Positions 2,608-16,021 of a DNA stretch of 64,000 nucleotides are shown piece after piece; positions within the stretch are counted from its first letter, which is position 1, and each line of letters begins with the position of its first letter. The stretch is taken from positions 1 through 64,000 of the forward strand of contig NZ_AOLQ01000067.1 in the NCBI RefSeq assembly GCF_000337775.1, read 5' to 3'. The translations under genes were made by a program, and so were the position numbers. This stretch comes from Haloarcula vallismortis ATCC 29715. Its GTDB lineage: Archaea > Halobacteriota > Halobacteria > Halobacteriales > Haloarculaceae. The notes beneath the pieces are model-generated. The model was given only the letters and a program-made list of their open reading frames with translations. It was not told where the DNA came from and ran no database searches.

Positions 2608-4023
2608 TCAGAGCCCAACACTCACGACCGTCGCTTCGATAGTGATTGTCCCTAGATTGATCACGACTGCCGAGCCCTGTTGGAGAGGCTCGCGCTTGAA
2701 CTGCACACCGTCCATCGTCTCGCGGACCCGGAGCTCGGTTGTGATGGTGATGTCACGCAGGTACGGGTGGTCGGCGACGTTCACGGAGCCGTTGTCACCC
2801 GTCGTAATAATCACAGATGGCTCAGTACTGACGCGAGTGATGCGAGCGATTGTGTCGCCACCGCTGGTTTCGGTCATACCGGGCCTGATTGCGTCAGCCA
2901 TGTCTGCACGCACGTCGGTCATCCGCAGCGTTACTGTCCGGTTAGCGAGCGCTCCGCGTGGCTCAAGTGCACCAACACGCCTGATCGCCCCGGAGAGTTC
3001 ATAGCTTTCAGTCGAGATAGTGATATTGTTCCCGCGCTGGACAACGGCGTTGCCGAACCGCTGCTGGCCGTTGTCTTCCAGCGTAGCCAGCGAGAGGCCC
3101 ACGAGCACGCGTTTTCGGTCGGGATTCTGTGTCGCGTACGTGGTGACCGTCTTCACTTCGGCTGCCTCGTATCCGGCGACGGTAGTGACGTCGCCGGCAG
3201 CGATGCGGTCAGCCGTTTCTGCATCGACGGTCGCCTCAAGGAGAACGTCGGTCGTCGTTAGCTGGAGGCCGCTATCTATCTGTTCGATACGGCCGTTGAA
3301 CGTGTAATCCTCGGCCGGAAGTGTGACTGTCTGCCCGCGCCGAACCTGTGTGCCGCCGAACCGACGGTCGGACTGTTGTCTATACGTGTTGAGTTCTGCT
3401 TCGACGAAGACGGTCTGTTCGGTTGAGTTATATGTTGCATATGCGGCGACATCTTCGACAGTCGCGACAGTACGTCCGGCGAGTCGGATCTCATCACCGG
3501 CAGTAACGTCTCGCGCTTCGGCGGCAGTCATGGTGTCTCTGAGAACCACCGTCGTGTCTTCCTGAGCGAGGCTGTTGTCTCCACCCACTGCACGGATCTG
3601 GCCACTTACTTCGTAGCGGCTCGTCGCGATAGACAGCGACCGGCCGAGGCGTGGGGGGGCATTCGAATACGTGAGACTATCATCGCTAGGTGGTCCCCGA
3701 AGTGTGGCACGGAGAATGACGCGTGTCTGGTTGCCCTGTGGTGTTAACTGAACATCTGTGACTGTGAGCTCTGAATCACCGTTTGGACTGTACGTATCAC
3801 CTTCTGCTATTTCGGTGACGATGTATCCGGGTTGTGTCCCGAGGTCGAGAGTGACGTTGGTAGTGTTCGGAGCAGGTGGCTCTGGCTCCGGTTGGAGGAC
3901 AAGTGCGGCGCCTGCTACAACGACCGCAATGACGAGCAGGACGGCCAGCGCATCGACGATATTGACGAGGCCAAAGAGGTTCCCATCCTCGTCTAGGAGG
4001 GATGACGAACGACTATCTGCCAT
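2608..4023 (-). CDS. DUF4330-type membrane-anchored repeat protein
   Basis: 471 residues. After a short cytoplasmic N-terminus (LLDEDGNLFGLVNIVDAL) there is one transmembrane helix at about 24-43, then a large domain predicted outside the membrane. That domain holds three to four imperfect modules of roughly 105 residues. Each contains a D-(V/E)-T-AGD-like turn, a YATxN strand, an RFGG/RFGN-xxVxRG turn and a Y-(T/E)-x-x-G-x-I strand, giving a beta-rich array. The N-terminal signature matches DUF4330 proteins as I know them. No enzyme motif is seen. It leads a probable two-gene operon with the 149-residue protein downstream. Confidence 0.75.
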   Translation of the reverse strand: MADSRSSSLLDEDGNLFGLVNIVDALAVLLVIAVVVAGAALVLQPEPEPPAPNTTNVTLDLGTQPGYIVTEIAEGDTYSPNGDSELTVTDVQLTPQGNQTRVILRATLRGPPSDDSLTYSNAPPRLGRSLSIATSRYEVSGQIRAVGGDNSLAQEDTTVVLRDTMTAAEARDVTAGDEIRLAGRTVATVEDVAAYATYNSTEQTVFVEAELNTYRQQSDRRFGGTQVRRGQTVTLPAEDYTFNGRIEQIDSGLQLTTTDVLLEATVDAETADRIAAGDVTTVAGYEAAEVKTVTTYATQNPDRKRVLVGLSLATLEDNGQQRFGNAVVQRGNNITISTESYELSGAIRRVGALEPRGALANRTVTLRMTDVRADMADAIRPGMTETSGGDTIARITRVSTEPSVIITTGDNGSVNVADHPYLRDITITTELRVRETMDGVQFKREPLQQGSAVVINLGTITIEATVVSVGL

Positions 4024-4451: not shown

Positions 4452-5210
4452 ATGCGCAACACCGGCGACCAGGGGTCGACAACCGAGGCAGACCAGCCAG
4501 TTGATGGTACTGGCTACGGGCCAGCAAGTCCATCGGAGACGGCTGGGACATCACGGGAGAAGAGCCTCGGTGTCGATCTGTGTCTGAGCCATCCAGAACT
4601 GATTCTGACGGATGCAATCGAGAGTAGTCCGGGCGTAACAGTCCGTCCGGAGCAGATGGTCGGCGACGGCACGTCGACCTTTCTGGTGATAGAGGCCGCA
4701 GGTGAAACCTTAGACCAGTTCGAAACGGCACTGGAGAGAGATAGTACAGTGTGTGACCCCCTCGTATTAGACTGGACGGAAACGAGTCGCGTCTATCGTG
4801 TCGAGGTGGCCGACAGCGCCGTCCGGGTCACGGACTCGCTTGTCCGTGCCGGTGGCCGGGCGCTCGACATCGAAGGGACGGGTGGACAGTGGCTTGTACA
4901 CGCCCAGTTTCGGTCACGGGCGGCGCTGTCGCAGTTCCGATCCGAGTGCTCTGAGCGGGATATCACGTTTCGACTTGATCGACTGTACTGGACCTCTGGA
5001 GAAGCCAACGCCGGTGCATGCGGGCTGACCGCAGACCAGCAAGTCGCACTTGAGACAGCACACAGAGAGGGGTATTTCGACGTTCCCCGTGGCATCTCAC
5101 AGGCTGAGTTGGCGGACGAACTCGGCATCTCACCGTCGGCGATGTCACAGCGGATTCGGCGCGGGATGGACCAGGTCGTTGGGGCGGAACTCGGACTCTC
5201 TGATGAGTAG
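4452..5210 (+). CDS. HTH_10 (Bat-like) transcription regulator
   Basis: 252 residues. After a 35-residue disordered acidic N-terminus, residues about 38-180 form a beta-rich domain of the kind found in haloarchaeal bacterio-opsin-activator-like regulators. Residues about 190-245 are the HTH_10 domain (GLTADQQVALETAHREGYF, then ISQAELADELGISPSAMSQRIRRGM). No PAS or GAF sensory domain is present, so it is a short-form family member. It probably activates or represses nearby or distant genes. The ATG lies about 45 bases after a symmetrical candidate operator. The target is unknown. Confidence 0.85.
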   Translation: MRNTGDQGSTTEADQPVDGTGYGPASPSETAGTSREKSLGVDLCLSHPELILTDAIESSPGVTVRPEQMVGDGTSTFLVIEAAGETLDQFETALERDSTVCDPLVLDWTETSRVYRVEVADSAVRVTDSLVRAGGRALDIEGTGGQWLVHAQFRSRAALSQFRSECSERDITFRLDRLYWTSGEANAGACGLTADQQVALETAHREGYFDVPRGISQAELADELGISPSAMSQRIRRGMDQVVGAELGLSDE

Positions 5211-5315
5211 GTAGCTTGGACGCAGAGAACATCATTGGAATGTCAGGTGTGTCTGGAAGTGACAGGGAAGCTATGTGCCAAAAAGGATATTGTCCCGCTA
5301 TGACACCTCCATTGT

Positions 5316-7019
5316 ATGAGACACCGGATCGTGAGCGGGATATGCGCTATATTCCTCCTCTTAGCAGCCGCGTCCGCATCCGTAGGTGTCGCTGCTGCAG
5401 CGGACGCCGGGCAGTCTGTTGAATACACAGCGACGGGCAACAAAACAGCGCCAGCGATACAATCGGCCGGTCCCACACAGGCTATTGGGGACGGGCCGAA
5501 CGGAACTGCGTTCGTCTGGAAACAGATAGACGGCGAGGGCCCCGGCGGGTACCGGATTGCAGTGACCGTTAGCTCGCCGCACGAGAACCTCTCGATCTGT
5601 GCGCGCGCAAATGGGTCGCTGAGCTGTACGCCGGTCGGCCCGAACGGAACTGCGGCCCTCACGACTCCCGGGACGACTGGACTTGGTGACCTCTCGGTCG
5701 CTCTCTACAACACGAGCACCGACACCACGCTAGATCGGCAACCGGTGTCTCTGCAGCCGATTCAGCGTGCCGGTGATATTGACGACGACGGGCTCAACAA
5801 CAGCCAGGAGGTAGCACAGGGTACGAATCTCACTGACGCCGACACTGACGGAGACGGGCTGTTAGACGGGACAGAGGTCCATCAGCACGGGACGACCCCC
5901 ACAGTTGCAGACACTGATGAAGATGGTGTCACCGACAGGACTGAGATCCAACAGGGCACCGACCCGCGGCAGGGCGATACGGATGGCGACGGGCTGGCCG
6001 ACGAACGCGAACTGACACTCGGGACGAATCCCACCGTCGCCGATACTGACGGCGATGGGTTGTCCGACCAGCGAGAGGCGTCCGGTAAGACCGACCCAAC
6101 CGATGCGGACACTGACGACGATGGCGTCGTTGACGGTCGGGAACTGGAAGTCGGGACGAACCCGATACAGGCCGATACCGACGCTGATGGGGTCGCTGAT
6201 GGCAGGGAGCTGGCTCTGGGCACAGACCCGACGGTCGCAGACACTGACGGTGATGGGATAGCCGACGGGACAGAACTCGAATCGGGGACCGCACCCACCG
6301 AGAGTGATACAGACAGTGACGGCCTCGACGACGGCAGGGAACTGGCAGCCGGCACGTCTCCGACCACCGTCGATACGGATGGCGACGGTCTCAGCGACGG
6401 ACGCGAGGTTTCGGACCTTGGAACGGACCCACTCGCGTCTGATTCGGACGGTGACTTCCTGACTGACCCGCAGGAAGTCACCTGGGGGACGAACCCGAAC
6501 AGCGTCCTGACGCCAGCCTGGGTAACGAGTTCACTTCTGGGGTTCCTGATAGGGACTGGGCTGTCAGTCACAGCAATCAGGCGTGGCTGGGTCACGAGGC
6601 TCTCCACGGCGGCCAGGCTGTTCATCTATCGCTCCCTCGAACTGGATCGGGACATACTCGAAGTTAACCGTGAAATCGAAGCCACAGAAGGGGAGGACGA
6701 GGCTGACAGTGCAGGCATCGACGTGGCCACTGCGGCTGAGGCGTTCGAGCAAGCCGATCAGGAGTTCACTCCTGACGCACGGCTCGTGAAACTGATGCTG
6801 CAGGTCGAGAGCGGCCGCATGCACCAGACCGCCATCGTTGAGGCGACGGACTGGTCGAAAGCGAAAGTCAGCCGCCTCCTCTCGAAGATGGTTGACGACG
6901 ACGAGGTCGTAAAGATACGTCTCGGCAGGGAGAACCTCATCTGTCTGGAGCGGGCAAAGCCCCAAGCGGCGGACTCGCCCCATGCGGGCGACATCAAGCC
7001 GCCGACCCCCGGCGGATAA
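5316..7019 (+). CDS. Calcium-repeat transmembrane protein with cytoplasmic winged helix
   Basis: 567 residues. Residues 1-29 are a Sec signal peptide (IFLLLAAASASVGVAAA). Residues 30-150 form a small extracellular domain. Residues about 153-395 hold eleven tandem units of about 22 residues built on DTDGDGLxD, the thrombospondin type-3-like calcium-binding repeat. A transmembrane helix follows at about 401-421 (SSLLGFLIGTGLSVTAI). The cytoplasmic tail ends in a winged-helix-like domain (HQTAIVEATDWSKAKVSRLL, then a KIRLGRENLI wing) at about 498-545. The layout suggests a one-component sensor that couples an external calcium-bound domain to DNA binding. The ligand and targets are unknown. Confidence 0.85.
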   Translation: MRHRIVSGICAIFLLLAAASASVGVAAAADAGQSVEYTATGNKTAPAIQSAGPTQAIGDGPNGTAFVWKQIDGEGPGGYRIAVTVSSPHENLSICARANGSLSCTPVGPNGTAALTTPGTTGLGDLSVALYNTSTDTTLDRQPVSLQPIQRAGDIDDDGLNNSQEVAQGTNLTDADTDGDGLLDGTEVHQHGTTPTVADTDEDGVTDRTEIQQGTDPRQGDTDGDGLADERELTLGTNPTVADTDGDGLSDQREASGKTDPTDADTDDDGVVDGRELEVGTNPIQADTDADGVADGRELALGTDPTVADTDGDGIADGTELESGTAPTESDTDSDGLDDGRELAAGTSPTTVDTDGDGLSDGREVSDLGTDPLASDSDGDFLTDPQEVTWGTNPNSVLTPAWVTSSLLGFLIGTGLSVTAIRRGWVTRLSTAARLFIYRSLELDRDILEVNREIEATEGEDEADSAGIDVATAAEAFEQADQEFTPDARLVKLMLQVESGRMHQTAIVEATDWSKAKVSRLLSKMVDDDEVVKIRLGRENLICLERAKPQAADSPHAGDIKPPTPGG

Positions 7020-7490
7020 GCCGACTACGGACCGCGCGAGTCGGGCTGCTAGTGGCATCACTGCACAGCAACGGGTGAATTTCGGTCAAGCACACCTGCC
7101 GGCGGCTGTCACGCTGGTCAAAAATAGGTTTACACACTGTCTAACAGATCCAATGGTCTCCTTTTTGCCGGCTGTTGTGGCTTCTACATGCGGAAAACGG
7201 CAGAACAGCTCCGTGGTTTGAGAATCTCCACAGTACAACAGTGTGGTTTTTCACACACTAGTTGCCGTTGAAGTGGTGAAACAATTCGGTATGGTGCGTG
7301 AAACAGTAATAGAAAGCAAGCCCGGTGTCGAAACCCGGTTATCTGACTGTATTACCCCTTTAGAAGCCACTTTTACTGTATCATCTTCAGAGTAAATTAG
7401 CCATTACTGACCTGCTAAATCGGTGAAACAGTCGCAATCGACGGAACAGTCGACCCGGTATATGTCGGTTGCTGAAAAAGGAACGGGTAC
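7020..7490. other. Intergenic region with repeated GTGAAACA motifs
   Basis: No gene is seen. The octamer GTGAAACA occurs at 7276-7283, 7298-7305 and 7423-7430, with a related GGAACAGTCG near 7443. An inverted repeat AGTGTG/CACACT lies at 7240-7259 around a T run and may be a terminator for the preceding gene. The GTGAAACA copies nearest the start at 7491 could be regulator sites. Confidence 0.4.
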
Positions 7491-8204
7491 ATGTCGATAG
7501 CTGAAACGGCGTCTGAACCCACGGAAACTGAGACAGCGGAGTCCACGACAGACGAGTCACTGTCTGGAGATTCCCCATCTGACGACGGCCTTACCCGCGA
7601 CGACCTCTTCCACGTCCTCCAGTGTCGTCGTCGCCGTCTAGTCCTCAAGTACCTCCACGAGCACCCCGGCGATGAGCCGGCCGATATGAGCGATATCGCA
7701 GAACACATCGCGGCGCTGGAACACGACACGACAGTCGACTCGCTTCGCTCGAAACAGCGCCAGCGCGTCTACATCGCGCTGTACCAGTCCCACCTCCCAA
7801 AGATGGACGATGCGGGCGTCATCAACTACAACCAGGACCGGGGACTCGTCGAAGCGACCGCGCTCGCGAACTCCTTCGACAAATATCTCGATGAGGAGCC
7901 ATCGCTCCTGTCGACACCGGCTGCGGAGTCAACGCTGTCGGCCGGGCCGGTAACTAATCACGGCCGGACTGATGGCCACACGTCTCCCAGTGAGCGGTGG
8001 TCGAGTCGGTATCTCGGGACTGCGTGTGCCACACTGGTTGCAGCCGGTGGACTCGCACTCAGCGAGACCACAGTGTCGGGTGTCGCAGTCGCACTCGTCG
8101 TGAGCGTGGTGTTCGTAGCACTGGCGGTGAGTCATCGGCTCTCACTGTCGACACCGAAGTCGCTTTCAGACCGGTTACGGGCCGCTCTTGGGACGGAGAG
8201 GTAA
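7491..8204 (+). CDS. DUF7344-like wHTH membrane protein
   Basis: 237 residues. After an acidic disordered N-terminus (1-38), residues about 40-125 resemble the haloarchaeal DUF7344 winged-helix domain: DLFHVLQCRRRRLVLKYL, SDIAEHIAALE, then a YIALYQSHLPKMDDAGVINY helix-and-wing segment. The C-terminal part has two membrane helices (about 178-195 and 198-216: ACATLVAAGGLAL, SGVAVALVVSVVFVALAV). It is probably a membrane-tethered transcription regulator. Its neighbour 44 bases downstream has the same architecture, so the pair looks like a tandem duplication. No sensory domain is visible. Confidence 0.75.
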   Translation: MSIAETASEPTETETAESTTDESLSGDSPSDDGLTRDDLFHVLQCRRRRLVLKYLHEHPGDEPADMSDIAEHIAALEHDTTVDSLRSKQRQRVYIALYQSHLPKMDDAGVINYNQDRGLVEATALANSFDKYLDEEPSLLSTPAAESTLSAGPVTNHGRTDGHTSPSERWSSRYLGTACATLVAAGGLALSETTVSGVAVALVVSVVFVALAVSHRLSLSTPKSLSDRLRAALGTER

Positions 8205-8247: not shown

Positions 8248-8808
8248 ATGCGACCGACAGTGGGACTCGACGCCGTCCTTGGTACCGAGAAAACAACTGA
8301 GCCGCCAGAGCAGCACGGCCTCGATGACGCGACACTATTCGATAGCCTCGGTAACGAGCGCCGCCGCGCATGCTTGCGCTGCCTTGCTGAACACGGGGCA
8401 GCGATGTCCGTCAGTACGCTGGGCAAACAGGTGGCACGAGCTGTCGCCGATACAGAGGCTGATAGCGACGAACTCTACGACAGCGTGTACGTTTCACTCT
8501 GTCAGACTCATCTGCCAAAACTCGACGCTGTCGGGCTGGTAGAGTACGAGCAAAACCGAAAACGTGTCCGTCAGGGCCCCAGATTCAGCGCTATCAGGGA
8601 GCAGTTCGAAGCGGCCCGCGCACCGGAAAAGCAGGCAACTGAGAGTATTCAAGCCGAGCCCATCGTGAGTATTCTGACGGTGGCGATAGGCGCGGTCGCA
8701 GTCGTGAGTCCACCGATAGCCAGAACGGTCCTGCTTTTCGGACTCGTTGTGGTTCACCTTCTGGTTCTTATTTCTGGGTTCACATCTCCGTTCAGAAGTA
8801 GTGACTGA
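8248..8808 (+). CDS. DUF7344-like wHTH membrane protein, paralogue
   Basis: 186 residues, the second of a tandem pair. The wHTH region (about 25-115) has LFDSLGNERRRACLRCLAEHG, LGKQVARAVADTE, and VYVSLCQTHLPKLDAVGLVEY, aligning block by block with the upstream paralogue (QRVYIALYQSHLPKMDDAGVINY). Two C-terminal membrane helices follow (about 133-150 and 154-172). It lacks the long acidic N-terminus of its neighbour. A TATA-like AT stretch sits before the ATG (GGTAAATAACAT), so it may have its own promoter. The two products could dimerise; that is inference. Confidence 0.75.
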   Translation: MRPTVGLDAVLGTEKTTEPPEQHGLDDATLFDSLGNERRRACLRCLAEHGAAMSVSTLGKQVARAVADTEADSDELYDSVYVSLCQTHLPKLDAVGLVEYEQNRKRVRQGPRFSAIREQFEAARAPEKQATESIQAEPIVSILTVAIGAVAVVSPPIARTVLLFGLVVVHLLVLISGFTSPFRSSD

Positions 8809-11171: not shown

Positions 11172-11852
11172 ATGCCACGCGATTCCTATCAGGAGGGACT
11201 GAACTCGCTCCGCGAAGATGTCCTCTATATGTCCGAAATCGTCCTCGAACGGTTGCGGCTTGGCCTGGATGCGCTCGAACAGAAAGACGAGGCGATGGCC
11301 CGGGAGGTCATCGAGGGCGACCACGAGATCAATCAGCTGTATCTCGACCTCGAACAGGACTGCATCGACCTGCTGGCGCTACAACAGCCGGTCGCCTCGG
11401 ACCTCCGGTTTATCGCCGCGTCGTTCAAGATTATCACTGACCTCGAACGGATCGGTGACCTCGCGACGAATCTGGGCGAGTACTCGCTGGAGGCCGAACG
11501 CGACGTGTACCCCGAGGTCGACATCCAGGACGTTGCCGACGTGACCATCGAGATGGTCGAAAACGCCATGGCGGCATACGGCGACGAGAACGCCGACCAG
11601 TGCTATACCATCGCCGACATCGACGACGAGGTCGACGAACGGTGCGAGGCCGCTTCCGAGATGGTGGTGCGCGACCTCATCGAGCGCGAAATCGACGCCG
11701 ATTCCAGCGAGGCCGAAATCGAACAGTTGATGGCCGATGTCTCCCGGCTGTTGCTGACGATTCGGGACATCGAGCGGGTCGGTGACCACGCCGTCAACAT
11801 CGCCGCGCGGACATTGTACATGGTCGAGAACGACGACGACCTCATTTACTAG
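11172..11852 (+). CDS. phoU: PhoU-domain protein
   Basis: 226 residues forming two PhoU three-helix bundles. Characteristic metal-binding helices with DLERIGDLATNLGEY (first half) and DIERVGDHAVNIAARTLY (second half) are present, along with the ALQQPVASDLRFIAASFKI segment. The start MPRDSYQEGL at 11172 is preferred over an upstream in-frame ATG, because it matches the usual PhoU N-terminus. PhoU proteins report phosphate status to Pst transporters or kinases. It is far from the pst operon at 31.8 kb and follows trkA, so a role in ion or phosphate signalling cannot be narrowed. Confidence 0.88.
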   Translation: MPRDSYQEGLNSLREDVLYMSEIVLERLRLGLDALEQKDEAMAREVIEGDHEINQLYLDLEQDCIDLLALQQPVASDLRFIAASFKIITDLERIGDLATNLGEYSLEAERDVYPEVDIQDVADVTIEMVENAMAAYGDENADQCYTIADIDDEVDERCEAASEMVVRDLIEREIDADSSEAEIEQLMADVSRLLLTIRDIERVGDHAVNIAARTLYMVENDDDLIY

Positions 11853-11856
11853 TACC

Positions 11857-11861
11857 TTTTT
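11857..11861 (+). terminator. Oligo-T terminator after phoU
   Basis: Five consecutive T residues five bases after the phoU stop codon, followed at once by a long GC-rich hairpin. Archaeal RNA polymerase terminates at such T runs. Confidence 0.4.
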
Positions 11862-12001
11862 ACTGCAGGGGGTTTCCTCGCGCCTGCGGCGCTGCGGGAA
11901 CCCCCCTTGCAAAAATCTACGCTAAAAACGACCTCCGAGACGCGGCCAGGGCCGCGCTCGGAGCGAAACCGCGCTCGCTCCGCTCGCGCGGTACGCATGA
12001 G

Positions 12002-12045
12002 ACAGCCACAGAACCGCGACAGCCACAAAACCGCGACAGCCACAC
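12002..12045 (+). repeat. 17-base tandem repeat, about 2.6 copies
   Basis: The unit ACAGCCACARAACCGCG is present twice in full, with the partial copy ACAGCCACA following it. It lies in noncoding DNA between phoU and radB. Confidence 0.6.
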
Positions 12046-12169
12046 GCCTCCCCAACCGACTGCGTTGCTCGGCTCGCTTTGCTCGCCTGTGCGACTCGTC
12101 CCTCGCGCTTGCGACGCGGCCGTCGCCGCGAGGGCGCGCGCCTGACAGCCGTATTTGTTATTGACTGAC

Positions 12170-12880
12170 TTACTGCGGCGTTTCGGGCGTATCGTCGCCC
12201 ACGAGTCCCGAATCGGTGATACGGAACTGGGCCGTCTCACCCGCGGGTTTGGCGCGGTGCTTCTCCAGCGTCGCGCGTCGGTTCCCGCCGCGAAAGCGGT
12301 CAAGGCGGACGATTGCGCCGGACCAGTGGTTCAGGGTGTGGCCACCAAGCGCCGTCGAGCGGTCACTGTCCGGGTCGGTGAACACCTGGTTCGTGTACAG
12401 GACGGCGATGTCGTGTTTGCGGGCCAGTGAGAGCAAATGGGTTATCTGGCGGGCCACGTCCCGGAGCGTCTCGCCGCCGTCCTCGTCGTCCCGGCGGAGC
12501 CGATAGAACCCGGTCGCGCTATCCAGCACGATGAGTTCGACCTCGGCGGCAAACTCCGCGGCGTCTTGGACGGCCTCGGCTTGCTCGTCGTAGTCCAGCG
12601 CTTCGGTGATGATGAGACGGCCGGCGAGGTCGTCGACAGTCTGGGCCGTCCCACGTGCGCGGCCGCTGGCGACTTGCTCCATCCGGTCGGCCGAGAGCCC
12701 TTCGGTGTCGATGTACAGCGCCGCGTCGCCGGCGGCGGCGACTTCCATCACCGCCGACAGGGCGAAGTTAGTCTTGCCGGCCGCCGGCGGGCCGTACACC
12801 TGCGTGACTGCGCCGCGTTCCAGCCCACCACCCAGAAGGTCGTCGATAGCGTCACACCCGGTCGAGACGTACTCGCTCAC
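12170..12880 (-). CDS. radB: RadB recombinase paralogue
   Basis: 236 residues. Single RecA-like core: STGCDAIDDLLGGGLERGAV, Walker A YGPPAAGKTN at about 38, Walker B ELIVLDSATGFY, and a TNQVFTD loop, ending in GAIVRLDRF. It lacks the N-terminal helix-hairpin-helix domain of RadA, which identifies RadB. The GTG start at 12880 is preferred: the sequence TTTTTATCC lies about 27 bases upstream and looks like its TATA box, whereas the longer frame would translate that box. RadB assists RadA in homologous recombination and DNA repair. Confidence 0.9.
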   Translation of the reverse strand: MSEYVSTGCDAIDDLLGGGLERGAVTQVYGPPAAGKTNFALSAVMEVAAAGDAALYIDTEGLSADRMEQVASGRARGTAQTVDDLAGRLIITEALDYDEQAEAVQDAAEFAAEVELIVLDSATGFYRLRRDDEDGGETLRDVARQITHLLSLARKHDIAVLYTNQVFTDPDSDRSTALGGHTLNHWSGAIVRLDRFRGGNRRATLEKHRAKPAGETAQFRITDSGLVGDDTPETPQ

Positions 12881-12934
12881 GGGCAGGGCTTGGTCAGGTT
12901 CGGATAAAAACACTGGTACCTGCCGGCACTGCTG

Positions 12935-13228
12935 TCAGTCGTCTGAAAGCCGCTCGGCCAGCGTCCACTCGGCGAGTGAGACGTCGTCGATTTCGGCCGT
13001 TGCAAACCGCAGGTCCGGTCCCCATTTGCGGGTGATAACGAGCGATTCAGGGTCGAGGTCGTACGACTGGAGGTCTGTCCAGGCGTAGAACCGTCTGGCG
13101 ACCGGCAGTCTGATTTCCAGACCGGCATCGGTCGCAACGGCGGTCCGGGTCCCGTCCGTCGGGAGGAGGACGAACCCGAACGGAAACAGTATCTGACCGA
13201 TGTACTGGAGGGCGGTGTGGTCGAACAC
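12935..13228 (-). CDS. Small membrane protein, possibly frameshifted at its start
   Basis: 97 residues from a GTG at 13228, with a hydrophobic segment (ALQYIGQILFPFGFVLLP) and a soluble beta-rich end (VATDAGLEIRLPVARRFYAW, LVITRKWGPDLRFATAEID). The same frame stays open upstream to 13324 and encodes a further membrane-helix-like stretch (LYLSGAVTAAATVGFAVGAV) but has no start codon there. An ATG overlapping the preceding gene's TGA at 13325 is out of frame by one. So either translation begins at 13228, or there is a frameshift between 13228 and 13325. Confidence 0.6.
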   Translation of the reverse strand: MFDHTALQYIGQILFPFGFVLLPTDGTRTAVATDAGLEIRLPVARRFYAWTDLQSYDLDPESLVITRKWGPDLRFATAEIDDVSLAEWTLAERLSDD

Positions 13229-13324
13229 TGCGCCGACGGCAAAGCCAACGGTCGCGGCGGCGGTGACGGCCCCACTGAGGTATAAGCGTCGCCGCCGTGC
13301 GGACTCGGGCCAGCTCGCTCGCCA

Positions 13325-13765
13325 TCAGGTCAGCTCATCTGTCCGGGCGGTGACCGCAGCGGTGTACCGTGTCTGTGCCATGACCGCGAGAGCGACTCCA
13401 AGCAGAAAGGCCAGCAGGCCGAAAAAGAACGCCAGCACGCCGCTGATGCCAGTCGTTCCCAGCGACACAAAGCCGGCGGCGGCGTACACGACCGCAATCG
13501 CCATCGGGAGCCAGCGTGTGCGAGTCGCCCCGAGTGTGACGGCCACCGGTGGTCGACCAGAGAGCACCCAGCCCGTCACAGCGGTCACAACGGCAAACGT
13601 TCCGATCAGCGCCAGGTATAGCGCCCAGGATTCAGTGACGCCGGCCCACTCCAGAGTCAGTATGGCTGGCGGTGCCAGAAGCAGGCCCAGATACGCGCCG
13701 CTGACGCCACCAAACAGCGGATCGGAGCCCGTATTCTCTCGGTCAGTGTCGGCCGCCGAACGCAT
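13325..13765 (-). CDS. Four-helix membrane protein
   Basis: 146 residues with four predicted membrane helices (about 22-38, 46-66, 87-104 and 109-130) and a short acidic N-terminus (AADTDRENTGSD). The ATG at 13765 is chosen; a GTG one codon earlier is also possible. Its stop overlaps an ATG for the next minus-strand frame, suggesting translational coupling. No functional motif is seen; it belongs to the many small haloarchaeal integral membrane proteins of unknown role. Confidence 0.7.
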   Translation of the reverse strand: MRSAADTDRENTGSDPLFGGVSGAYLGLLLAPPAILTLEWAGVTESWALYLALIGTFAVVTAVTGWVLSGRPPVAVTLGATRTRWLPMAIAVVYAAAGFVSLGTTGISGVLAFFFGLLAFLLGVALAVMAQTRYTAAVTARTDELT

Positions 13766-13922
13766 CACTCACAGTTCACTCACCTGTCACAAAAACCCTC
13801 TTAAACGTAATCGATGCTGGAACTGGGGCTATCTGACAGGGCGCTTCTCGCTACTCCCCGAGCCACAGACGCGGAGCACCGGACTCCCACATCTGTAAGT
13901 AATCGGCGTCCGAAATCCGGTC

Positions 13923-14690
13923 GTGATTGTCGTCGCCACCGAAGACTTCGAGGTGTACCACGGTGTCGTCAACGAGCTACGCGACCGTGGCGTGGCGTTC
14001 ACGACTATCGAACCGAGCGAGGACTGGCCCGATGAGGCGGATGTCGCGGTCATCGCGGAAGGGGAATCGGTCGAGATACCCGACGGCGTAGACCTTGTGC
14101 AGGCAGACCCGGACGCGCCGCGGCGGGCCGTCGAAGCCGTTATTTCGACGCTTCGGGGTGGCGACGGCCGTACCGTCATCGGTATCGATCCCGGCGAGCG
14201 ACCGGGCGTCGCGATTCTCCACGGCGAGATGGTCGTCGCAGCGTTTCAGGTGCCCGCAGCGGAAGCCGGAGAGATCGTCCGCGAGGAAGTCGAAGATGCT
14301 GTCAATCCGGTCGTTCGCATCGGCGACGGTGCGCGGCTCGTCGGCGCGCGCATTATCGACGATATCCAGTCCGTGCCGGTCGAGTTGGTCGACGAGACGG
14401 GCACAACGCCGTATCTCGGTTCCGGCGCGCGGGGGATGGGTGACGTGCTTGCCGCGGTCAACATCGCCCGTCTGGAGGGGGAGGAAATCGAGAGCCGGAC
14501 AATCGAGCCCACGGCCGGCGAACTCCAGAAAATCAAGGACCGTTCGCGAGAGAAAAGCGACACGAACCGGGCGATCAGCGAAGAGCTTGCCCGGCAGGTC
14601 GCGACCGGCGCGCTCACCGTTGAGGAGGCGCTGGTGGAACACAACAGCGACAGTTCGACCGACGACGAGGATGCACCCGACAACGAGTAG
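13923..14690 (+). CDS. RuvC/RNase H-fold protein of unknown function
   Basis: 255 residues, GTG start directly at the first beta strand (MIVVATEDFEVYHGVVNEL). Residues 1-80 look like a small alpha/beta domain. Residues about 84-190 carry a RuvC/YqgF-type signature: VIGIDPGERPGVAILHGEM with the conserved Asp, a second block RIGDGARLVGARIIDDI, and a late helix with Asp (GMGDVLAAVNIARL). The tail is helical and acidic. The family is probably archaeal and uncharacterised. A nuclease or Holliday-junction role is inference from the fold motif. It converges with larC, two bases apart. Confidence 0.75.
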   Translation: MIVVATEDFEVYHGVVNELRDRGVAFTTIEPSEDWPDEADVAVIAEGESVEIPDGVDLVQADPDAPRRAVEAVISTLRGGDGRTVIGIDPGERPGVAILHGEMVVAAFQVPAAEAGEIVREEVEDAVNPVVRIGDGARLVGARIIDDIQSVPVELVDETGTTPYLGSGARGMGDVLAAVNIARLEGEEIESRTIEPTAGELQKIKDRSREKSDTNRAISEELARQVATGALTVEEALVEHNSDSSTDDEDAPDNE

Positions 14691-14692
14691 CG

Positions 14693-16021
14693 CTACTCTC
14701 GGACCATCCGCTCGGCCCGCTGCATCACGTCGCGGACGGGGAGTCCGGTGGCGTCCGCGACCGCTGCGGCGTCGTCGTACTCCGCGCTCACGTCGAACAC
14801 CGTGCCGTCAGTGTCACTTGCGACCTTGACCGTCACCTCGAACTGCTCGCCGTCGGCGGAGAGCGTGACCGTCTCGTACTCACGGTCAGCGACCCAGCGG
14901 TGGCCGGCCCCGGACTCGCGGACGCCGAGCGTCCCGGTCGCTTCGGCGAGGCGGCGCGCGACCCGCTCGGCGTCGTCCGGTCTGCAGATGACTTTCACGA
15001 TGTGGCCGGGCCGGGACTTCTTCATCGTCGTCGGCACTATCGACACGTCGCGAGCGCCGACATCTTTCAGCGTTCGCTGGAGGTCACCAAGCACCTCGGG
15101 TGGAACGTCGTCGACGTTGGTTTCAAGCACCGTGATTTCGTCGCGGCGGAGCCGTCCCGCGCCGTCGCCGACCATCGCCCGCAGGACGTTGGGACGGTCG
15201 TCGAGGTCCCATCCGCCAGCGCCGTACCCCGACGCGTCGACGTCGAGCGGCGGCAGCGACTCGGTCCCCTCGGCGATGTGTGCGAGAATCGCCGCGCCGG
15301 TCGGCGTTGTTAGTTCCCTGTCGATGGGACCGCCCCGGAGCGACCAGTCGGCCCGTTCTGCGATCTCGACCACCGCCGGGGTCGGGACGGGGTAGGTCCC
15401 GTGGCTCATCTCCACGGTGCCGCCGCCGGCCGACACCGGTGTCGTCACGACCCGGTCTACGTCGAGGTCGTCCAGCAGGAGACAGGCGCCGACGATGTCG
15501 GCGATTGCGTCGTCGGCCCCGACCTCGTGGAAGTGTGTCCCGTCGAGGTCCGTCCCGTGGACCGACGCCTCGGCCTCGCCGAGGATCTCGAAAATCGCCA
15601 GCGCGTCCGCTCTGACGGCCGTCGGCAGGTCCATCTCTTCGACGAGTTCGACGACCTCGGCGTACGTGCGGCTCGGGCCGTGGCCCTCAGCGTGGGTGTG
15701 ATCGTGACTGTCGTGGCCATGGTCGTGACCGTCGTGGCTATCGTCGTGGTCGCCGTGGTCGTGGGAATGTGAGTGGTCGTCCCCAGTGTGGCCGTGTTCC
15801 TCGTCGTGGGAGACATCGCTGTCGCCATCAGCGTCGGTCAGCAGTACCTCGACGCGCGTGCCGGCGATGCCGCATCGGTCCACCTCTGAGACGGCGTACT
15901 CGATAGCGAGTGCGTCCTCGACCGGCGATAGGGCTTCGCGGTCGGCCCCGGCAGCCAGCAGCGCCCCCAGAAGCATGTCGCCGGCAGCGCCCATCCGGCC
16001 GTCGAAAGCGAGTGTTCGCAT
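14693..16021 (-). CDS. larC: LarC nickel insertion protein (nickel-pincer cofactor)
   Basis: 442 residues. The N-terminal MRTLAFDGRMGAAGDMLLGALLAAG and the FHEVGADDAIADIVGACLLL segment are diagnostic for LarC (DUF111), which inserts nickel into pyridinium-3,5-bisthiocarboxylic acid mononucleotide. The C-terminal half has LETNVDDVPPEVLG and TTMKKSRPGHIVKVI. Residues about 70-115 form an insert rich in His and Asp (SHSHDHGDH and similar), a likely nickel reservoir. larB, larE and a racemase are not in the window. Length is normal apart from the His-rich insert. Confidence 0.9.
   Translation of the reverse strand: MRTLAFDGRMGAAGDMLLGALLAAGADREALSPVEDALAIEYAVSEVDRCGIAGTRVEVLLTDADGDSDVSHDEEHGHTGDDHSHSHDHGDHDDSHDGHDHGHDSHDHTHAEGHGPSRTYAEVVELVEEMDLPTAVRADALAIFEILGEAEASVHGTDLDGTHFHEVGADDAIADIVGACLLLDDLDVDRVVTTPVSAGGGTVEMSHGTYPVPTPAVVEIAERADWSLRGGPIDRELTTPTGAAILAHIAEGTESLPPLDVDASGYGAGGWDLDDRPNVLRAMVGDGAGRLRRDEITVLETNVDDVPPEVLGDLQRTLKDVGARDVSIVPTTMKKSRPGHIVKVICRPDDAERVARRLAEATGTLGVRESGAGHRWVADREYETVTLSADGEQFEVTVKVASDTDGTVFDVSAEYDDAAAVADATGLPVRDVMQRAERMVRE

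Follow-up and report, generated by a model that had tools for sequence, protein, structure and literature searches.

At positions 5316–7019 (+), the stretch of 64,000 nucleotides that we analysed (hereafter, the window) carries a gene for a 567-aa protein that we read, at somewhat better than even confidence, as a one-component membrane regulator. An external sensor on a stalk of TSP3 repeats would be joined to a DUF7343 domain that binds boxes in the promoter of the neighboring gene D1, and D1 and D2 would relay the response. The proposed mechanism starts with a small beta-rich, probably disulphide-closed domain that would face outside on a calcium-stiffened stalk of eleven repeats. A single helix would cross the membrane and link this ectodomain to the cytosolic DUF7343 winged helix, which, probably as a dimer or oligomer, would bind GTGAAAC/GGAAC boxes just upstream of the D1 TATA box. 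Binding would adjust the transcription of D1, and the products of D1 and D2, which are predicted to be membrane-anchored HTH-type proteins, would pass the response on.

Domain architecture and predicted topology

The gene opens with ATG, and its domains were assigned from the translated sequence. The hydrophobic N-terminus is a predicted signal peptide (residues ~1–33, positions 5316–5414, with the cleavage site judged by eye), followed by an N-terminal ectodomain of ~115 aa that contains the pair Cys95/Cys104 (residues 34–152, positions 5415–5771). Eleven TSP3 calcium-type repeats (residues 154–396, positions 5775–6503) lead to a single membrane helix, recognized by hydropathy and positive-inside bias (residues ~403–421, positions 6522–6578, with RR just after it). 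A charged cytosolic juxtamembrane segment and a variable linker, delimited by alignment (positions 6585–6767), precede the DUF7343 winged-helix domain (residues 491–544, positions 6786–6947). This domain includes a putative recognition helix, WSKAKVSRLLS (residues 513–523, positions 6852–6884), and a putative wing, RLGRENLICL (residues 535–544, positions 6918–6947), both in alignment columns that are invariant or nearly so. All these features lie on the forward strand.

The original prediction described a secreted domain with eleven calcium-type repeats, and the repeats were recovered in that number. The Pfam profile PF18884 (TSP3_bac) matched 11 stretches (E 4.2e-51, 170.8 bits against a cut-off of 25), which start at residues 154, 176, 199, 221, 243, 265, 287, 309, 331, 353 and 376, and the calcium-ligand pattern DxDxDG..D..E occurs 11 times. 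In 2000 shuffles of the protein, the motif appeared 0.001 times on average and at most once; chance repeats are ruled out by this test together with the profile E-value.

The same prediction placed one membrane helix between the repeats and a cytoplasmic winged helix. The only hydrophobic segments of the protein are the N-terminal signal (residues 1–19) and the inner segment at ~403–421, which is flanked by no Lys/Arg before it and by four after it. Positive charge is greater on the DUF7343 side in all 18 TSP3-type proteins (18/18), compared with 6 of 12 other DUF7343 proteins. By the positive-inside rule, this charge bias puts the repeats outside and the DUF7343 tail inside. Hydropathy and charge therefore predict the topology that had been proposed: external repeats, one crossing and a cytosolic winged helix.

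The winged helix belongs to a recognized family, PF24034 (DUF7343; E 1.9e-22, 79.3 bits against a curated cut-off of 27.6). MarR_2 and IclR HTH profiles also matched the C-terminal domain, more weakly and below cut-off. The WSKAKVSRLLS helix and the GRENLICL part of the wing are nearly invariant in other families, even in genera whose overall identity is about 40%. Because of these weak MarR/IclR matches and the near-invariance of the recognition helix and wing, we read DUF7343 as a putative regulator domain; from its winged-helix profile the tail would bind DNA, and a candidate operator is described below. AlphaFold models were poor (mean pLDDT 36 for the full-length protein and 53 for the tail), and the order of helices and strands in the tail model fits a winged helix. 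A Foldseek search with the tail returned nothing significant; its matches, at E about 1, included several winged-helix repressors (ArsR, PagR and MarR).

No kinase or receiver family was matched by the Pfam and NCBIfam profiles, which agrees, at the level of sequence, with the proposed absence of a kinase step. A predicted sensor and a predicted DNA-binding domain thus share one membrane polypeptide that has no matched kinase or receiver, as in one-component regulators. Response-regulator matches in the PDB (E about 0.02) were taken as chance because Pfam shows no receiver domain. A lone-gene chimera or frameshift artefact is ruled out, since the protein can be aligned over its whole length with 17 full-length orthologues.

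Taken as a whole, the original observation on this open reading frame is confirmed and its interpretation is partly supported; surface contact as a signal, and the passage of any signal across the membrane, are hypotheses. Calcium binding by the repeats is a prediction that ligand conservation supports well, whereas calcium sensing, as distinct from binding, is unsupported. Our analysis also revealed features beyond that interpretation, namely the ectodomain at residues 34–152 with Cys95/Cys104, and a downstream pair of DUF7344 genes with a conserved promoter.

Linkage to D1 and D2

D1 (7491–8204, +; PF24035, E 4.4e-29) begins after a gap of about 470 bp and is followed by D2 (8248–8808, +; PF24035, E 2.7e-23). 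Both encode DUF7344 proteins with C-terminal hydrophobic helices, predicted to be membrane-anchored HTH-type regulators, and D1 is the candidate target or partner of the TSP3–DUF7343 protein. It lies downstream on the same strand in 16 of the 16 orthologous loci compared, and it is adjacent in every TSP3-gene genome of the window's family whose positions were compared (21/21), as well as in families f4, f7 and f17 (five genomes). When fourteen loci representing eight lineages were compared, D1 was the neighbour common to all and D2 was common to several; other neighbours were found only in subsets. No D1 was found beside the TSP3–DUF7343 genes of family f5. We note that the conserved synteny partly reflects shared descent. 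One genome (G029) was left out of the assessment of TSP3-gene presence and absence because a run of N covers the site upstream of and beside its D1 orthologue where the gene would lie (L152, 6683–8484).

Other neighbours vary among loci. Directly upstream of the TSP3 gene is a BAT/HTH_10 regulator gene (4452–5210, +) that is kept in the Haloarcula orthologues and not in more distant loci, and a DUF4330 protein encoded at 2608–4023 (−) is conserved in some Haloarcula loci. In L060, the genes immediately upstream of the TSP3 gene are GlmS-like and asparagine-synthase-like (11775–15349, −). Such neighbours occur in three lineages (L060/L061, L062 and L064/L065), and a glycan link is possible.

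A candidate operator at the D1 promoter

The TSP3 gene is preceded, ~25–40 bp before its ATG, by a BRE/TATA-like element, GCCAAAAAGGATATTG (5276–5293, +), that is near-invariant in 11 aligned orthologues. A promoter role for GCCAAAAAGGATATTG is suggested by this position and conservation, and the promoter is likely leaderless.

Conservation in the gap upstream of D1 is poor outside one block, which runs up to and includes the TATA box. In the window this block reads GTGAAACAGTCGCAATCGACGGAACAGTCGACCCGGTATATG; it is kept throughout Haloarcula and recognizable in other genera. The D1 promoter combines conserved GTGAAAC/GGAAC boxes with a TATA element placed by alignment at 7459–7463 (+), and the operator-like block GTGAAACAGTCG...CGGAACAGTCG (7423–7452, +) is conserved in orthologues. 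Farther upstream are two GTGAAACA boxes at 7276–7283 and 7298–7305 (both +), the second lying 22 bp from the first and conserved in the alignment. The GTGAAACA box occurs three times in the window, always inside the 470-bp gap before D1. The boxes may resemble the site of the GvpE activator, a similarity on which our reading does not draw.

The exact GTGAAACAGTCG...CGGAACAGTCG pair has a single match in the source genome. Two looser operator patterns matched no more than once in any of 17 genomes, and a reversed control gave no match; the matches sit at D1 with one exception, in a genome (G012) that lacks the TSP3/D1 pair. Because the linkage to D1 is conserved, and because the promoter block is both conserved and nearly genome-unique, we read the D1 promoter as the candidate target of the TSP3–DUF7343 protein. 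The sequence itself shows the domains, the predicted topology, the constraint, the linkage and the promoter block; DNA binding by the tail, the identity of the operator, which way control runs and the nature of the signal are our inferences.

A genome without the TSP3 gene offers a natural experiment. G079 has D1, D2 and an AsnB-like gene that shares 63% identity with its counterpart next to the L060 TSP3 gene, but the interval from AsnB to D1 holds no TSP3 gene. Its gap before D1 contains no GTGAAAC box; part of the TATA-proximal box remains. This one case favours the TSP3 protein as the reader of the GTGAAAC boxes. Against our reading we counted the partial box in G079, the box arrays that have diverged in f4, f7 and f17, the f5 genes without D1 and the match in G012.

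The GTGAAAC boxes might instead serve autoregulation of D1, or another factor, with the TSP3–DUF7343 protein acting at other promoters or through contact with the D1 protein. We consider this unlikely. In its favour, D1 is predicted to encode an HTH-type protein and its own promoter carries the boxes, and the TATA-proximal box partly persists in G079, where there is no TSP3 gene. Against it, the GTGAAAC boxes are gone from G079, which keeps D1, and none precedes the other DUF7344 genes of the source genome.

Two further arrangements were seen. L155 of G012 carries, around position 1500, a GTGAAAC...CGGAACTGTCGACCGGTTATAT block though the genome has no TSP3 gene, which may be a relic or chance. 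In L139 / L062 (G063), an operator-like unit appears to be duplicated in tandem before D1.

Sequence constraint and the likely sensor

Among ten Haloarcula orthologues, dN/dS was 0.13 for both the repeats and DUF7343, about 0.24 for the linker and 0.33 for the N-terminal domain. All predicted calcium-ligand positions are identical in these ten orthologues (44/44), compared with 85% identity at other repeat positions. The ligand residues and the putative DNA-contact elements are thus among the most constrained parts of the protein.

The ectodomain at residues 34–152 has no significant relatives in Pfam or the PDB, and is predicted from a low-confidence model to be beta-rich. Cys95 and Cys104 are kept in most orthologues, with Cys104 lost in L064/L065, and they probably form an external disulphide. 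As the sensing part, with the repeats as its stalk, this domain is a candidate equally good as or better than the repeats themselves. Relatives carry anywhere between about 5 and 14 repeats, with a distinct domain at the outer end, and a stalk bearing a sensor fits this pattern. In our opinion, calcium mainly stabilizes the stalk and sensing falls to the N-terminal domain; calcium itself is a possible signal.

If the protein were a true sensor of calcium or divalent cations, occupancy of the repeats would alter the shape of the stalk, and the change would be transmitted to the winged helix. The eleven canonical repeats and their invariant ligand positions in the ten orthologues are as expected for such a sensor, but a structural stalk would show equal ligand conservation. 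The variable repeat number and the presence of a separate conserved ectodomain also argue against it, and the sites may always be full in haloarchaeal brines, which are rich in divalent ions. We regard this explanation as improbable. More improbable still is a surface adhesin or cell-wall spacer whose winged helix is no longer regulatory and serves, for example, to contact proteins or to anchor the chromosome. TSP3 repeats are widespread among proteins of the cell surface and DNA binding by DUF7343 is a prediction, but the recognition helix and wing hardly vary and the gene stays linked to HTH-type genes, with a promoter block that is conserved.

The DUF7343 class and comparison with known systems

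The C-terminal DUF7343 profile was matched in 386 of 392 genomes of the order, and the source genome encodes three DUF7343 paralogues in which the ectodomain is DUF7345 and a single helix crosses the membrane. Because the domain is near-universal and these paralogues share the same plan, the protein is not a lone oddity, and the one-component idea would apply to a large uncharacterized class. Within this membrane-bound one-component class, the TSP3 form is a variant set apart by its special ectodomain. The domain tree, built on 61 columns and to be taken only as a guide, groups most TSP3-type proteins in a single clade (99/98) that spans the window's family plus four further families of the order; the shorter TSP3 type of family f5 (L093, L095 and L096) falls outside it.

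Routes from an outside signal to DNA are poorly known in haloarchaea, where DUF7343 proteins, many of them membrane-bound, occur in nearly every genome of the order. The TSP3–DUF7343 member comes with a candidate target promoter whose boxes are defined, which makes DNA binding, target and signal for the DUF7343 class directly testable in a culturable genus. Orthologues are present in the laboratory species H. japonica, H. argentinensis and H. amylolytica. Its interest lies in this ready-made promoter and in the size of the uncharacterized class. We tentatively propose, as a possibility less likely than not, a conserved surface-to-DNA relay in which a calcium-repeat protein would bind, while in the membrane, essentially a single operator per genome, before a dedicated DUF7344 gene. 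This would start a cascade in which as many as three DNA-binding proteins, all anchored in the membrane, act without phosphorylation. Our literature search on DUF7343, DUF7344, COG2512 and TSP3 in haloarchaea found nothing relevant, and no relatives of the protein were found on viral contigs.

The DUF7345–TM–DUF7343 paralogues resemble the protein in having a signal peptide, an ectodomain, one membrane helix and a cytosolic C-terminal DUF7343. They differ in that their ectodomain is DUF7345, which had no Pfam match in the TSP3–DUF7343 protein, and in that they lack TSP3 repeats and form a separate clade in the domain tree. Their recognition helix mostly reads SKSKVSM, compared with SKAKVSR in the TSP3 type.

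Regulators of the ToxR/CadC type are single-pass proteins with an external sensor, an internal N-terminal winged helix of the OmpR type and no kinase. The predicted plan of the TSP3–DUF7343 protein is alike, with a single pass, an external sensor, an internal winged helix and no kinase, but the domain order is opposite, with the HTH at the C-terminus, and Pfam found no OmpR-type winged helix (Trans_reg_C) in the 567-aa protein. ArnR and ArnR1 of Sulfolobus acidocaldarius are archaeal membrane-bound one-component regulators that bind the promoters of surface structures (PMC6396743), and the protein described here is likewise predicted to be an archaeal membrane-bound one-component regulator. 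The layout described for ArnR comprises an N-terminal HTH, HAMP-like and sensor domains and two C-terminal membrane helices, with phosphorylation by ArnC and without TSP3 repeats (PMC6396743), whereas the TSP3–DUF7343 protein has a C-terminal winged helix and one inner membrane helix.

TSP3 surface proteins such as MtsD/CglD share the repeats, and the NCBIfam matches to them are repeat-driven and fall well short of the curated thresholds (57 of 800 bits and 88 of 400 bits), with no C-terminal DNA-binding domain matched. The source genome has two other open reading frames with TSP3 repeats, at C37:19489–21921 (1876 aa) and C65:278093–278203 (351 aa), where the lengths are those of the open frames.
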